Below are positions 19,665 to 24,028 of a stretch of 64,000 nt of DNA, piece by piece (positions within the stretch are counted from its first letter, which is position 1; each line of letters opens with the position of its first letter). Origin of the DNA: Caulobacter henricii. Its GTDB lineage: Bacteria; Pseudomonadota; Alphaproteobacteria; Caulobacterales; Caulobacteraceae. The stretch lies in contig NZ_CP013002.1 of the NCBI RefSeq assembly GCF_001414055.1, positions 2,232,001-2,296,000 of the forward strand, in the 5' to 3' direction. The notes under the pieces were generated by a model. It saw only the letters and a list, made by a program, of their open reading frames with translations. It had not been told where the DNA came from and searched no databases. A program made the position numbers and the translations under genes.

Positions 19665-21449
19665 GTGGCAACGACTCTGAACGCCCCTGACGACTCGGCC
19701 CTGGCGCAACTGTTCGCCCGCGAGCAGCGCAGCGGCGGCGCGACCTGGTTTTCCCTGCCGGGTGGCGCGACGCTCTATGCCCCGGGAGAAAGCGCCGACC
19801 ATCTCTATTTCCTGCGCACCGGCCGCATGGGCGCATTCCGGCGTGAGGAGGGCCAGGAGCCGCAGTTCCTGGGAGTCATTCGGCCGGGCGAGCCGGCCGG
19901 CGAAATGGCCCTGATCGGCGGCACGTCCCATTCAGCCAATCTGGTCGCCTTGCGCGACAGCGAGATTCTGGCCCTGCCCCGAGCGGCTTTCTTCGAGGCC
20001 GCCGAAACCGATCCGACGGTCATGATCGAACTGTCGCGACTGATGATCCGCCGGGCCCGCCAGGCCCAGACCCACGCCGCGATCGGCGATCCGTCGGTTT
20101 TTGGCTTTATCGCAGTGGAACCCGGACCCGCTATCCGGCCCGTGGTCGAGCGTCTGGCGCGGAGCATGGTGGCTCTGGGCTACTCGGTGACCGTCGAGGG
20201 CGCGGAGTCGCAACTGGCCCCCACCGAGTGGTTCAGCAATGTCGAGCGCGAGCACGACTTCGTGCTGTATGTGGCCGAAGCCGACGAAACCCAGTGGAAG
20301 CACGTGGTCGGCAGACAGGTCGACCGCCTGTTCCGGATTGGGCGTGGCGAACGTCCGCCTCCGCCGACCATCCCGACCTATGCCTCTGGCCCCCTTCAGG
20401 CCCAGCGTCTCGTCGACCTGATTCTTCTGCAGTCCGGCAACCTGAAACAGCCCCAGGGTTCCGAAGCCTGGATGGAGGCCACCAAGGCGGCCCGCCTGTT
20501 CCATCTGCGCGAGAACGGCATGGCCGATGTCCAGAGACTGGCCCGGGTTCTGACCGGCCAGTCGGTGGGTCTGGTGCTCTCCGGCGGCGGTGCTCGGGCC
20601 TATGCCCATATCGGCGCCATCGAAGCCCTGCGCGAGCGCGGCATTCCCATCGACTTTGTCGGCGGGGCCTCCATGGGCGGGGTGATCGCGGCGGGCCTGG
20701 CCATGGGGTGGGACGATGGCGAGATGGAGGCCCGCATCCGCAAGGCCTTCGTCGAGTCGAGCCCCGTCGACGATATCGCCTTTCCGATGATCGCCATGAC
20801 GCGCGGCGACAAGGTCAAGGCCCGCCTGCAGGAACATTTCGGCGACGTACAGATCAGCGACCTGTGGCTGCCGTTCTTTTGCGTGTCCTCAAACCTGACC
20901 TCGGGTTCCTACCACCTCCACCGCCGGGGTCCGCTCCACAACGCCCTGCGGGCCTCGATCTCGCTGCCGGGTGTGCTGCCCCCGGTTTGCGAGAACGGCG
21001 CGGTCCTGGTCGATGGCGCGGTCATGAAGAACTTCCCCGCCGACGTCATGCGCGCCTTCCAGCTCGGCCCGATCGTCGGGGTGGATGTCACGCGTGGCCG
21101 CAGCATCACCGACGAGGACGTGGTCAGCCCCCCCTCGCTGTGGAAGTGGGTCCTGTCAGGGGAATGGCGCAAGGGGCCGCCGATCGTCGCCCTGTTGATG
21201 CGTGCTGCCACGGTCTCCACCGGGCGAGATCTTGCGGCCAGTCGTGAAGCCTCGGACGTGCTGATCACGCCGAAGCTGGACAAGATCGACATCCGTGACT
21301 GGCGCGCCTTTGAGCCCGCCGTGGCCGCCGGCAAGATCGCGGCCGCGATCGCCATCGACTCACTGGACCGTCCAGTCACCGACCTTCGCCGCCGTCCGAG
21401 CCTGGTCGAGCGCGCCCGCGAAGCGCTCAATCCCGTCGGGCGAGGATGA
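19665..21449 (+). CDS. Patatin-like phospholipase with N-terminal cyclic-nucleotide-binding domain
   Basis: A 594-residue protein of the NTE/RssA-like type. Residues ~25-145 form a cNMP-binding barrel (LYAPGESADHLYFLRTGRMG, then RPGEPAGEMALIGG). A middle P-loop-less region follows. The C-terminal patatin domain has the oxyanion SGGGARAYAHIG, nucleophile S336 in GGASMGG, and the Asp of the dyad D450 in VDGAVMKN. It is expected to hydrolyse phospholipid or lysophospholipid acyl chains, possibly under nucleotide control. The GTG start is the only plausible one. Its 3' end overlaps the convergent methyltransferase gene by 23 bases. Confidence 0.92.
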   Translation: MATTLNAPDDSALAQLFAREQRSGGATWFSLPGGATLYAPGESADHLYFLRTGRMGAFRREEGQEPQFLGVIRPGEPAGEMALIGGTSHSANLVALRDSEILALPRAAFFEAAETDPTVMIELSRLMIRRARQAQTHAAIGDPSVFGFIAVEPGPAIRPVVERLARSMVALGYSVTVEGAESQLAPTEWFSNVEREHDFVLYVAEADETQWKHVVGRQVDRLFRIGRGERPPPPTIPTYASGPLQAQRLVDLILLQSGNLKQPQGSEAWMEATKAARLFHLRENGMADVQRLARVLTGQSVGLVLSGGGARAYAHIGAIEALRERGIPIDFVGGASMGGVIAAGLAMGWDDGEMEARIRKAFVESSPVDDIAFPMIAMTRGDKVKARLQEHFGDVQISDLWLPFFCVSSNLTSGSYHLHRRGPLHNALRASISLPGVLPPVCENGAVLVDGAVMKNFPADVMRAFQLGPIVGVDVTRGRSITDEDVVSPPSLWKWVLSGEWRKGPPIVALLMRAATVSTGRDLAASREASDVLITPKLDKIDIRDWRAFEPAVAAGKIAAAIAIDSLDRPVTDLRRRPSLVERAREALNPVGRG

Positions 21450-22345: not shown

Positions 22346-22513
22346 ATGCCTCGACCGGCCAAGCGCACTATGGTCGTTGATCACCGCAAGGATGCGGTGG
22401 GATTGATGCCGCCACCGGCTCAAAGGCTTGATTTTCCCCGGCCCATGATGATCGCCGCGACCGTGCTGTTCTGGGCCGTGGTCATCATGACCCTGAAGAT
22501 GCTGCTCGCCTGA
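22346..22513 (+). CDS. Small single-pass membrane protein (55 aa)
   Basis: An ATG-started 55-codon frame with GGAAGGA and GGAG upstream. The product has a basic N-terminus (MPRPAKRTMV), a Pro-rich stretch (MPPPAQRLDFPRP), and one transmembrane helix at residues ~34-54 (MMIAATVLFWAVVIMTLK). The predicted topology is N-in. It does not match a family I recognise. It stands alone between tam and a structured transcript. Confidence 0.6.
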   Translation: MPRPAKRTMVVDHRKDAVGLMPPPAQRLDFPRPMMIAATVLFWAVVIMTLKMLLA

Positions 22514-22624
22514 TCCCCGATCGCTCTGCGGCAAATGGCCGTAGCTGAAATATCCGCTTTCCTTGCCCGGAATTTCGCGCCCATACTCTGCTTGTGTTGT
22601 TCAACAACTGAAAGGAGGTGACCA

Positions 22625-22693
22625 GTGTCTCATTGTCTCCAACCGAGGTCGCGCATCGTGACCTGGAGCCTGAAGATAGAGGTATCCGCCTAG
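22625..22693 (+). CDS. Possible 22-residue leader-like peptide
   Basis: A GTG codon lies 6 bases after GGAGG of an unusually strong Shine-Dalgarno (AAAGGAGGTGA). The frame encodes a basic peptide beginning VSHCLQPRSR and ending LKIEVSA, with its stop codon in the loop of a small hairpin. The ribosome site is much better than at most real genes in this window, but a 22-codon frame proves little. It could be a small protein, a regulatory leader, or a decoy for ribosomes. Confidence 0.45.
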   Translation: MSHCLQPRSRIVTWSLKIEVSA

Positions 22694-22750
22694 AGGCGTT
22701 GAATCGCTCCAGGTTTCAGTCACGCCGCGCACCGCGGCCACGACGATGGA

Positions 22751-22783
22751 GGGCCGTTCCGGGCGACCGGAACGGCCCTTTTT
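22751..22783 (+). terminator. Strong Rho-independent terminator
   Basis: Perfect 12-bp arms (22751-22762 and 22767-22778) around a GCGA loop are followed by five T residues on the plus strand. It ends the structured transcript 14 bases before the convergent liuA stop. Confidence 0.92.
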
Positions 22784-22796
22784 CATGGCGCGAAGG

Positions 22797-23948
22797 TCAG
22801 TTGCCGACCAGTTCGCGGCCGATCAGGAAACGCCGGATCTCGTTGGTGCCGGCGCCGATGTCATACAGCTTGGCGTCGCGCAGGAAGCGCTCGACCGGCC
22901 ATTCCCGCGTATAGCCGGCACCGCCCAGGGCCTGAATGGCCTCCAGACAGGTCTTCACGGCATTCTCCGAGGCCAGCAGGATCGCGCCGGCGGCGTCGAA
23001 ACGGGTGGTCTTGCCCGCATCGCAGGCCCGGGCCACGGCATAGACATAGGCCCTGGCCGAGTTCAGGGCGACATACATGTCCGCCACCTTGCCCTGCATC
23101 AGCTGGAATGAGCCAATGGCCTGGCCGAACTGCTTGCGTTCGCGGACATAGGGCAGGACGACGTCGATACAGGCCTGCATCAGGCCAAGCGGACCCGCCG
23201 CCAGTACGGCGCGCTCATAGTCCAGCCCGCTCATCAGAACGCCGACGCCACCGCCGACCGGGCCCATGACGTTCTCTACCGGGACTTCGCAGTCTTCAAA
23301 GACCAGCTCGGCGGTATCCGATCCGCGCATGCCCATCTTGTCGAGCTTCTTGCTGACGCTGAAACCCTTCATGCCCTTCTCGATCAGGAAGGCCGTGATG
23401 CCGCGATCACTGGTCTTGGCATAGACCACCAGGGTGTCGGCATGCGGGGCGTTGGTGATCCAGAATTTCGTGCCGTTGAGCACATAGTGGTCGCCCTTGA
23501 GCTCGGCCCGCAGCTTCATGGACACCACGTCCGAGCCCGATCCGACCTCGCTCATGGCCAGGGAGCCGACATGTTCACCGCTGATCAGCTTGGGCAGGTA
23601 GCGGGTCTTTTGCTCGGGCGTCGCCCAACGGCGGATCTGATTCACGCAGAGATTGGAGTGGGCCCCATAGGACAGGCCGACCGAGGCTGAGGCGCGGGAG
23701 ATCTCCTCCATGGCGACCACATGTTCCAGATAGCCGAGGCCCAGGCCGCCGAACTCCTCCTCGACCGTGATGCCGTGCAGGCCAAGGTCACCCATGGGCA
23801 CCCAGAGCTCGCGCGGAAAGCTGTTGGTCTCATCGATCTGAGCGGCGATCGGCGCGATCTTGTCGGCCGCGAACCGGGCAGTGGTGTCACGGATCGCGTC
23901 GGCCGTTTCGCCCAGCGCGAAGTCCATCGAGGGTGCGGAATTTGTCAT
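22797..23948 (-). CDS. liuA: Isovaleryl-CoA dehydrogenase
   Basis: A 383-residue FAD-dependent acyl-CoA dehydrogenase that oxidises isovaleryl-CoA to 3-methylcrotonyl-CoA, the step before MCC. The catalytic base E245 lies in GLDYERAVL, the position characteristic of isovaleryl-CoA dehydrogenase rather than the C-terminal Glu of short- and medium-chain enzymes. Also seen are [33 protein letters not shown] and the C-terminal [22 protein letters not shown] 23948 or the adjacent ATG 23951 could be used. Separated from liuBCD by three unrelated genes. Confidence 0.93.
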
Positions 23949-24028
23949 CATGCGCCACCCCATAGCACAAACGCCCGCAGATCAACGAGACCTGCGGGCG
24001 TTCATGCTCATCGGCTTTTCAGCCGGGA

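Follow-up and report, generated by a model that had tools for sequence, protein, structure and literature searches.

The locus under study lies within a window of 64,000 nucleotides of Caulobacter henricii DNA, which is the whole stretch that was analyzed, and consists of a short structured RNA on the forward strand whose parts are listed in Table 1. Direct reading of the window copy gave AAAGGAGGTGA at 22611-22621 and AAAGGAGGTGACCAGTG at 22611-22627, and likewise bore out the GTG-started, 22-codon frame that a first-pass annotation of the letters had proposed; the peptide spelled by this frame is MSHCLQPRSRIVTWSLKIEVSA. The 5′ tail of the RNA is CAAC-rich in many relatives, as judged from column counts over 83 homologs and from the alignments A1 and A3 described below. 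On the 3′ side, the adjoining gene (22797-23963), which carries acyl-CoA dehydrogenase domains, is convergent with the RNA, and no same-strand gene directly follows, in agreement with the first reading of the sequence. Upstream of the RNA, the window holds a 55-codon frame (22346-22513, forward strand) that ends in a hydrophobic stretch, is without a Pfam match and may encode a small membrane protein, as well as a gene (19665-21449, forward strand) in which a cyclic-nucleotide-binding domain is joined to a patatin-like phospholipase domain.

Table 1 Positions in the window of the RNA and its component features
Feature	Position	Strand	Basis
-10-like hexamer CATACT (presumed own promoter)	22582-22587	+	direct reading
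Whole RNA, Rfam RF01867 (CC2171)	22602-22778	+	116.2 bits, model 1-159 complete
Short 5′ tail CAACAACT	22602-22609	+	column counts over 83 homologs, alignments A1 and A3
Extended Shine-Dalgarno / 16S-tail complement GAAAGGAGGTGA(-)CCA	22610-22624	+	12 contiguous complementary bases
Reading frame, 22 codons (GTG start 22625-22627, TAG stop 22691-22693)	22625-22693	+	
Helix P1, 5′ arm CATTGTC (codons 3, 4 and first base of 5)	22631-22637	+	82-homolog covariation
Inner rod, 5′ strand, CGTGAC + TGGAGCCTG	22657-22672	+	minimum-energy fold
Small hairpin CGCC-TAGA-GGCG, stop codon in loop	22687-22698	+	letters, folds, helix search
Inner rod, 3′ strand, CAGGTTTCA + GTCACG	22710-22724	+	minimum-energy fold
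Helix P1, 3′ arm GACGATG, directly 5′ of terminator	22742-22748	+	covariation
Terminator-like G+C-rich hairpin with T run, stacked directly on P1	22750-22783	+	folds

A strict consensus and sigma-70 scan of the locus picked up no promoter and no terminator. By a looser test of our own, which excluded 12 of 123 homologs, a terminator-like hairpin was present in the remaining 111. Between -46 and -18 upstream of GGAGG, 16.8% of 197 homologs carried the motif [CT]ATANT, a share that fell to 2.7% in shuffled sequences, and 31 among these 197 homologs had -10-like matches at -28 to -32. The nearest downstream ORF in the scored loci lay on the same strand in 33 cases and on the opposite strand in 32; the largest downstream-ORF clusters had seven same-strand and seven opposite-strand members, and the largest neighbor cluster common to the loci, with nine members, was upstream. 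Thus, no conserved co-directional downstream gene, and indeed no downstream gene common to the family loci, was found. The terminator-like end, the lack of a common downstream gene and the -10-like element seen in some homologs are all in line with the proposal that the locus specifies a stand-alone small RNA.

Family identity and distribution

Scanning the window against Rfam returned RF01867 (CC2171) and two tRNAs, and nothing else. The covariance model of this family (159 positions) covers the RNA from end to end, at a score that compares with a gathering score of 75, and a search of the genome with the same model yielded the window copy as its single match. The statement that the RNA fits no known family therefore falls. 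The observation as a whole proved real, as attested by this score, by a fold at z -5.2 and by an 11-mer met once in the readable genome.

The family is catalogued already, and its Rfam description mentions only a Caulobacter small RNA; the small transcript is said to have been reported in Caulobacter by Landt in 2008. MH_s33 of Mesorhizobium huakuii, detected by sequencing, is listed as an RF01867 member with an extent of 215 nt (PMC5596092), and the Rfam 15 paper places RF01867 among the families that gained one covarying pair (PMC11701678). Searches of the open-licence literature found no text on the breadth of RF01867, its 16S complement or its frame, no paper pairing CC2171 with Caulobacter, and none containing the six peptide strings. 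What is added here is the class-wide spread, the 16S complement, the covariation of helix P1 and a kept frame whose peptide is near-neutral.

Of 299 Caulobacterales genomes, 148 gave an RF01867 match at E <= 0.001, and 41 of these exceeded the family cut-off. Some of these genomes (e.g. G007, G027, G121, G206, G225, G235 and G260) carried a second, weaker match, possibly to a paralogue. To look further afield, sequence signatures were used. The signature AAAGGAGGTGATCCANTG was found in 35 of 385 genomes sampled class-wide, with no match to its backwards control, and a longer one, at a tolerance of three mismatches, in 63 of the 385 (one control match). The 5′ signature GAAAGGAGGTGATCCNRTGTC, allowing up to two mismatches, was present in 52 of 86 alphaproteobacterial genomes compared to 4 of 213 others of the phylum, a split which, like the count of exact places, we tallied from the phylum-wide search table. 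Within the class, 41 of 53 places were exact and one genome had two places; outside it, all four matches carried two mismatches. The backwards control gave three places in the whole phylum sample, two of them inside the class. The genome of the window itself was missed by the GAAAGGAGGTGATCCNRTGTC search because its copy lacks one T, and the signature counts are therefore lower bounds.

At least 119 named contigs carried the signature, and among the 80 shown nearly all bear alphaproteobacterial names, including Sphingomonas, Novosphingobium, Paracoccus, Methylobacterium, Bradyrhizobium, Mesorhizobium, Bosea, Ancylobacter and Roseococcus. The exceptions among these 80 were three contigs titled only Proteobacteria and one Gemmatimonadota title (L189), a match that we estimate to be at chance level. 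Of 20 class-wide loci, six scored over the RF01867 cut-off. Judging from these sequence matches, the RNA family is not confined to Caulobacter and has relatives widespread across the Alphaproteobacteria.

The Caulobacterales loci used for comparison (L001-L030 and L092-L151, 90 in all) were the best 30 plus 60 hand-chosen from a longer match list. From a total of 150 loci, 147 were reduced to 123 non-redundant sequences; L103, L110 and L120, all three of which possess GGAGGTG and a start codon, were left out as their Shine-Dalgarno (SD) missed the search pattern. Removal of one truncated locus left the 122 sequences in which frame lengths were scored.

16S-tail complement and conserved fold

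The first-pass annotation had singled out a full match to the anti-SD. Against the 16S rRNA 3′ tail, which we take to be CTGGATCACCTCCTTTC, the window copy indeed presents 12 contiguous complementary bases, having lost one T of the consensus GAAAGGAGGTGATCCA and, with it, one base of the complement. In 83 non-redundant Caulobacterales copies, found by the covariance model and also anchored on GGAGG by pattern, the contiguous complement spans 10-17 bases (14-17 in 62 of them), and it sits at normal spacing before ATG, GTG or TTG. The TG after GGAGG is invariant in all 83; three A residues precede GGAGG in at least 81, and a G occupies -4 in 75. The complement exceeds the length needed for initiation. 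Class-wide sets of homologs found by SD patterns cannot prove conservation of the SD, because they were selected on it. The alternative that the RNA acts as an anti-anti-SD able to bind ribosomes, also raised in the first reading, is thus borne out as a capacity of the sequence. The 11-mer AAAGGAGGTGA occurred once in the readable 3.96-Mb assembly. Since no 16S motif was found in that same assembly, its rRNA genes seem unreadable there, and an antisense copy in 16S would go uncounted.

A strong SD near the 5′ end, with the 5′ end itself predicted, recalls STAB-SD elements, in which a strong SD can stabilize a transcript without productive translation (PMC7509114). STAB-SD elements, as described there, sit in the leaders of longer mRNAs and do not need a start codon, whereas the RF01867 RNA keeps its start, frame and stop and ends after about 180 bases. 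In three homologs (L032, L063 and L045), the long SD precedes frames of 56-58 codons that, unlike those of other homologs, have a hydrophobic N-terminal stretch and perhaps encode secreted peptides.

The predicted fold of the RNA reaches -99.5 kcal/mol (z -5.2), a value equaled by none of 200 shuffles. Helix P1 pairs the beginning of the reading frame with the segment adjoining the terminator. In alignment A3, comprising all 82 aligned homologs, 95.4% of P1 cells were paired, compared to 25-60% when the partner was slid, and five of the seven pairs showed double changes; the covariation score was reached by 0 of 500 shuffles, and the number of double-changed pairs by 7 of 500. Representative pairs of arms include CATTGTC/GACAATG, CATAGTT/GACTATG, CACCAAA/TTTGGTG and ATGAGATT/AATCTCAT. 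The count had been made on alignment A1 (63 of the 82 references, thinned by eye), with 95.0% of cells paired and 0 of 500 shuffles reaching the score; because about half of the 19 rows dropped in the thinning were divergent, it was repeated on all 82, with the same result. Across 32 arm types, the cognate helix averaged 6.1 versus 5.1 for non-cognate 3′ arms (Wilcoxon p = 3e-6), although only six of the 32 types individually beat 90% of non-cognate arms. Conserved secondary structure in RF01867 is thus found in P1. Looking in homologs for a loss of the stems or of the frame, as the first-pass annotation had suggested, gave the opposite: P1 covaries and the stop codons are kept.

Eight copies from the genus form a similar rod in which P1 adjoins the terminator. 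Their SD core is unpaired at 0.56-0.85, a figure that falls to 0.40 for isolated folds of 107 more widely drawn homologs. The stop codon had been placed in a hairpin loop nested in a 9-bp stem, ACCTGGAGC/GCTCCAGGT. The loop is confirmed, and the letters of the stem are present, but the minimum-energy fold pairs the same strands in another register, as TGGAGCCTG/CAGGTTTCA, and this register is the one found in relatives. A TGGAGCC-type inner-rod helix is also seen in relatives L001, L002, L006 and L007. Over the 107 homologs, the stop codon was unpaired at 0.53 compared to 0.31 for body triplets, and it lay at 0.60 (sd 0.09) of the distance to the terminator; we accordingly do not claim that it marks the midpoint or apex of the rod.

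Two further pairings were discarded. RNAalifold proposed an SD hairpin (columns 13-20 with 30-37), but it showed no double changes, and the second subfamily (alignment A2, 21 of 24 sequences) has other letters there. An internal mimic of the 16S tail (letters such as CTGGATCGTCGCCTCC or GGATCACCTC, present in many homologs) that would pair with the RNA's own SD was left out of the mechanism as inconsistent across lineages. Its signal averaged z -1.32 in the first set of 123 homologs, with several genus copies near zero, and -0.90 in 197 homologs versus -0.35 for a reversed-SD control; it was absent from Sphingomonadales-type copies (-0.30 vs -0.47 in the control), and in Bradyrhizobium-type copies the control was equally strong (-1.93 against -1.90). 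An initial fold-based search for an SD partner was confounded by fixed windows that extended past the terminator. Exact 16S-tail letters, GGATCACCTC and GGATCACCTCC, do occur within the RNA body in L135 (208-362) and, downstream of its signature, in L239, where they could pair with the RNA's own SD; these letters vary by lineage. Separately, a motif like GGAGCAGCCTCC is common to a second group of loci (L141, L143, L146-L151, L047, L051 and L053-L055). Since the frame crosses this motif in another phase in L149 and L039, and a GCAGCC motif lies 3′ of the stop in L059 and L060, the GGAGCAGCCTCC-like motif seems to belong to the RNA rather than to a peptide.

Reading frame and encoded peptide

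A frame of 19-30 codons followed the SD in 115 of 122 homologs, compared to 13% after dinucleotide shuffling, and frames of this length were found in 12 and 37 of the 122 in the other two phases. In an enlarged set, 194 of 198 homologs had a frame of 14-31 codons, a band that was widened after the data had been seen and carries no shuffle control. Frame length follows the lineage given in the contig titles, with 14 codons in Bradyrhizobium, 22-23 in Mesorhizobium and relatives and 18 in many Rhodobacterales and Sphingomonadales. Of 78 copies on named contigs, 35 fell within 19-30 codons and 37 had exactly 18, the latter mostly under Rhodobacterales and Sphingomonadales titles.

Stop codons of all three kinds occur (95 TGA, 65 TAA and 38 TAG over 198 homologs). 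Among 68 pairs of homologs at least 75% identical, taken without restriction on frame length, the stop was identical in 42, replaced by another stop in 15, lost in six and out of frame in five, and frame length was equal in 52. Against our own estimate of 0.22 for a mutated stop remaining a stop under neutrality, stop-to-stop swaps made up 15 of 21 changes (p = 2e-6), or 15 of 26 when the out-of-frame cases were included (p = 8e-5). More distant pairs, likewise taken regardless of frame length, gave 50 identical stops, 20 stop-to-stop swaps, 17 lost or moved and three out of frame (p = 1e-4). All p-values given here overstate independence, because the sequences are related. The frame, together with its start and stop, is thus kept by selection.

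Insertions and deletions in the frame were multiples of three in 19 of 63 cases in the 68-pair set aligned as DNA, which is not above chance and, taken alone, does not look coding; the figure for more distant pairs was 46 of 130, and the gaps that alignment A1 places inside the frame differ, for the most part, by multiples of three. Given that frame length remained equal in 52 of the 68 pairs, these indels fit compensating shifts, with a contribution of alignment error. A compensated frameshift is carried by L103 and L120, in which a base inserted after the start codon is followed by a later compensating change, so that the first residues read VISLS... versus VSHCH..., whereas the P1 letters TCTCATTGTC and the later frame are unchanged and the frame, at 21 codons, equals that of the related L013.

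Whether the locus is a micro-protein gene, as the first-pass annotation had also entertained, was assessed from 57 pairs of equal frame length. Their dN/dS was 0.97 (bootstrap 0.76-1.30), not below that of the two wrong frames (0.77 and 0.55), and substitutions by codon position (153/186/150) showed no third-position excess. The same method applied to flanking ORFs (18 pairs) gave a dN/dS of 0.19 and substitutions of 956/579/1759. In a first, smaller set of 33 pairs, again of equal frame length, dN/dS had been 0.69 (p = 0.05). When 50 of the 57 pairs were grouped into lineages by frame length and start codon, rather than by taxonomy, dN/dS was 0.56 for Rhodobacterales-type pairs (9 pairs, true frame), 2.16 for Sphingomonadales-type pairs (7) and 1.02 for longer frames (34). 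Purifying selection on the peptide was thus not detected overall, the one group of nine pairs at 0.56 being the exception, nor did this indirect test point to a functional encoded peptide. Pfam and NCBIfam held no family match for eight peptides.

These data bear on the most serious rival explanation, namely that the transcript serves as a small mRNA, its product being a functional micro-protein of about 14-30 residues, and that the RNA structure only tunes translation. The kept frame, start and stop would suit such a product, as would the likeness of peptides within lineages (VSRVILERGVGTVRG... in many Rhodobacterales titles, SHCHxxR...TW in others) and the value obtained for Rhodobacterales-type pairs; the overall dN/dS, the compensated frameshifts and the differences in length and sequence between orders argue against it. 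As the frame is kept but the peptide is without overall constraint, a conserved micro-protein is, in our estimation, unlikely. The earlier suggestion of a micro-protein gene consequently holds for the frame and fails for the peptide as a whole.

In this respect the RNA differs from rnTrpL/peTrpL of Sinorhizobium, whose peTrpL peptide has 14 amino acids (PMC10117765), and from Spot 42/SpfP: all are regulatory-sized RNAs with a very short frame, but the peptides of the latter two function. A point against translation of the frame is that Schrader et al. (2014) describe the intergenic non-coding RNA regions of Caulobacter as untranslated by ribosome profiling, although they also count two earlier non-coding RNAs as translated (PMC4117421).

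Candidate functions

Selection keeps the tail that would load ribosomes, the start codon, the distance from it to the stop and the fold, but overall not the residues. We therefore tentatively favor, at somewhat less than even confidence, the view that this CC2171 family member is a regulatory RNA that stands alone, ends in a terminator and depends for its job on engagement by the ribosome and not on the peptide. Translation would then probably switch the fold or the lifetime of the RNA. The 10-17-base complement (12 bases here), set at normal spacing, would afford high-priority loading of 30S subunits. The loaded ribosome would translate the 14-31 codons and stop at the kept position, often in a loop, as the evolutionary evidence suggests. 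Because the 5′ strand of P1 coincides with codons 3-5, a loading ribosome would have to open the rod, P1 being known from comparison and its movement conjectural. Two states may be envisaged, one closed when no ribosome loads and one open upon loading, and the state adopted would set either the lifetime of the RNA or the exposure of its 3′ strand. Such a riboregulator could read the availability of initiation-ready 30S subunits. That the family serves class-wide as a sensor of initiation-ready ribosomes, its complement reading the intact 16S 3′ tail and peptide-independent translation of a frame of fixed length opening the rod to switch regulatory output, is a bolder proposition that we consider possible but rather doubtful.

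The same complement could instead make the RNA a pure 30S decoy that ties up initiation-ready subunits, the frame merely offering an exit that avoids non-stop ribosomes. A complement longer than initiation needs and an 11-mer unique in the readable genome fit this idea, and an exit of this kind would call for just what is seen, a stop but no conserved peptide. Cells contain thousands of ribosomes, for which reason one small RNA would need extreme abundance to act in this way, and on numbers a pure decoy is doubtful. The kept start codon and spacing also speak against it, as does a stop position tighter than the avoidance of non-stop ribosomes needs (the 37 of 78 named-contig copies at exactly 18 codons). 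We thus regard a decoy as quite unlikely.

Capture of small RNAs with anti-SD seeds by the SD tail, for instance those of the alphaR8 family (SisA-D in Caulobacter), would make the RNA a sponge. Both families are alphaproteobacterial, and SisA-D are reported to share a 10-mer bearing an anti-SD signature and to be sponged already by another RNA, CrfA (PMC12559287). What the two families have in common is that they are small RNAs of Alphaproteobacteria centered on letters resembling the SD or the anti-SD; the polarity of the SisA-D motif is opposite to that of the RF01867 RNA, no frame is described for SisA-D in that text (PMC12559287), and Rfam gave the window RF01867 and the two tRNAs. The complement moreover extends along most of the 16S tail, with GATCC and the G at -4 included, which exceeds the needs of a CCUCC seed, and a sponge would need no start, stop or frame; we hold this explanation to be improbable. 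A cis-acting leader or attenuator with an overlooked downstream gene has in its favor the classic layout of short frame and terminator and some neighbors common within the family, but is very improbable in view of the convergent next gene in the window, the even strand split of the downstream ORFs and the upstream position of the largest common neighbor cluster.

Returning to the regulatory RNA dependent on ribosome engagement, the RNA catalogued as a Caulobacter small RNA proves to be a widespread alphaproteobacterial one that offers among the longest 16S pairings available to a transcript. If the sensor reading were true, translation would here be a mechanical signal rather than a route to a product. 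With a conserved frame and an unconserved peptide, the act of translation is uncoupled from what it makes, and a clean genetic system may thus be at hand for studying how cells gauge their free ribosomal subunits. A further lesson is that a short frame on a small RNA is no guarantee of a functional peptide.
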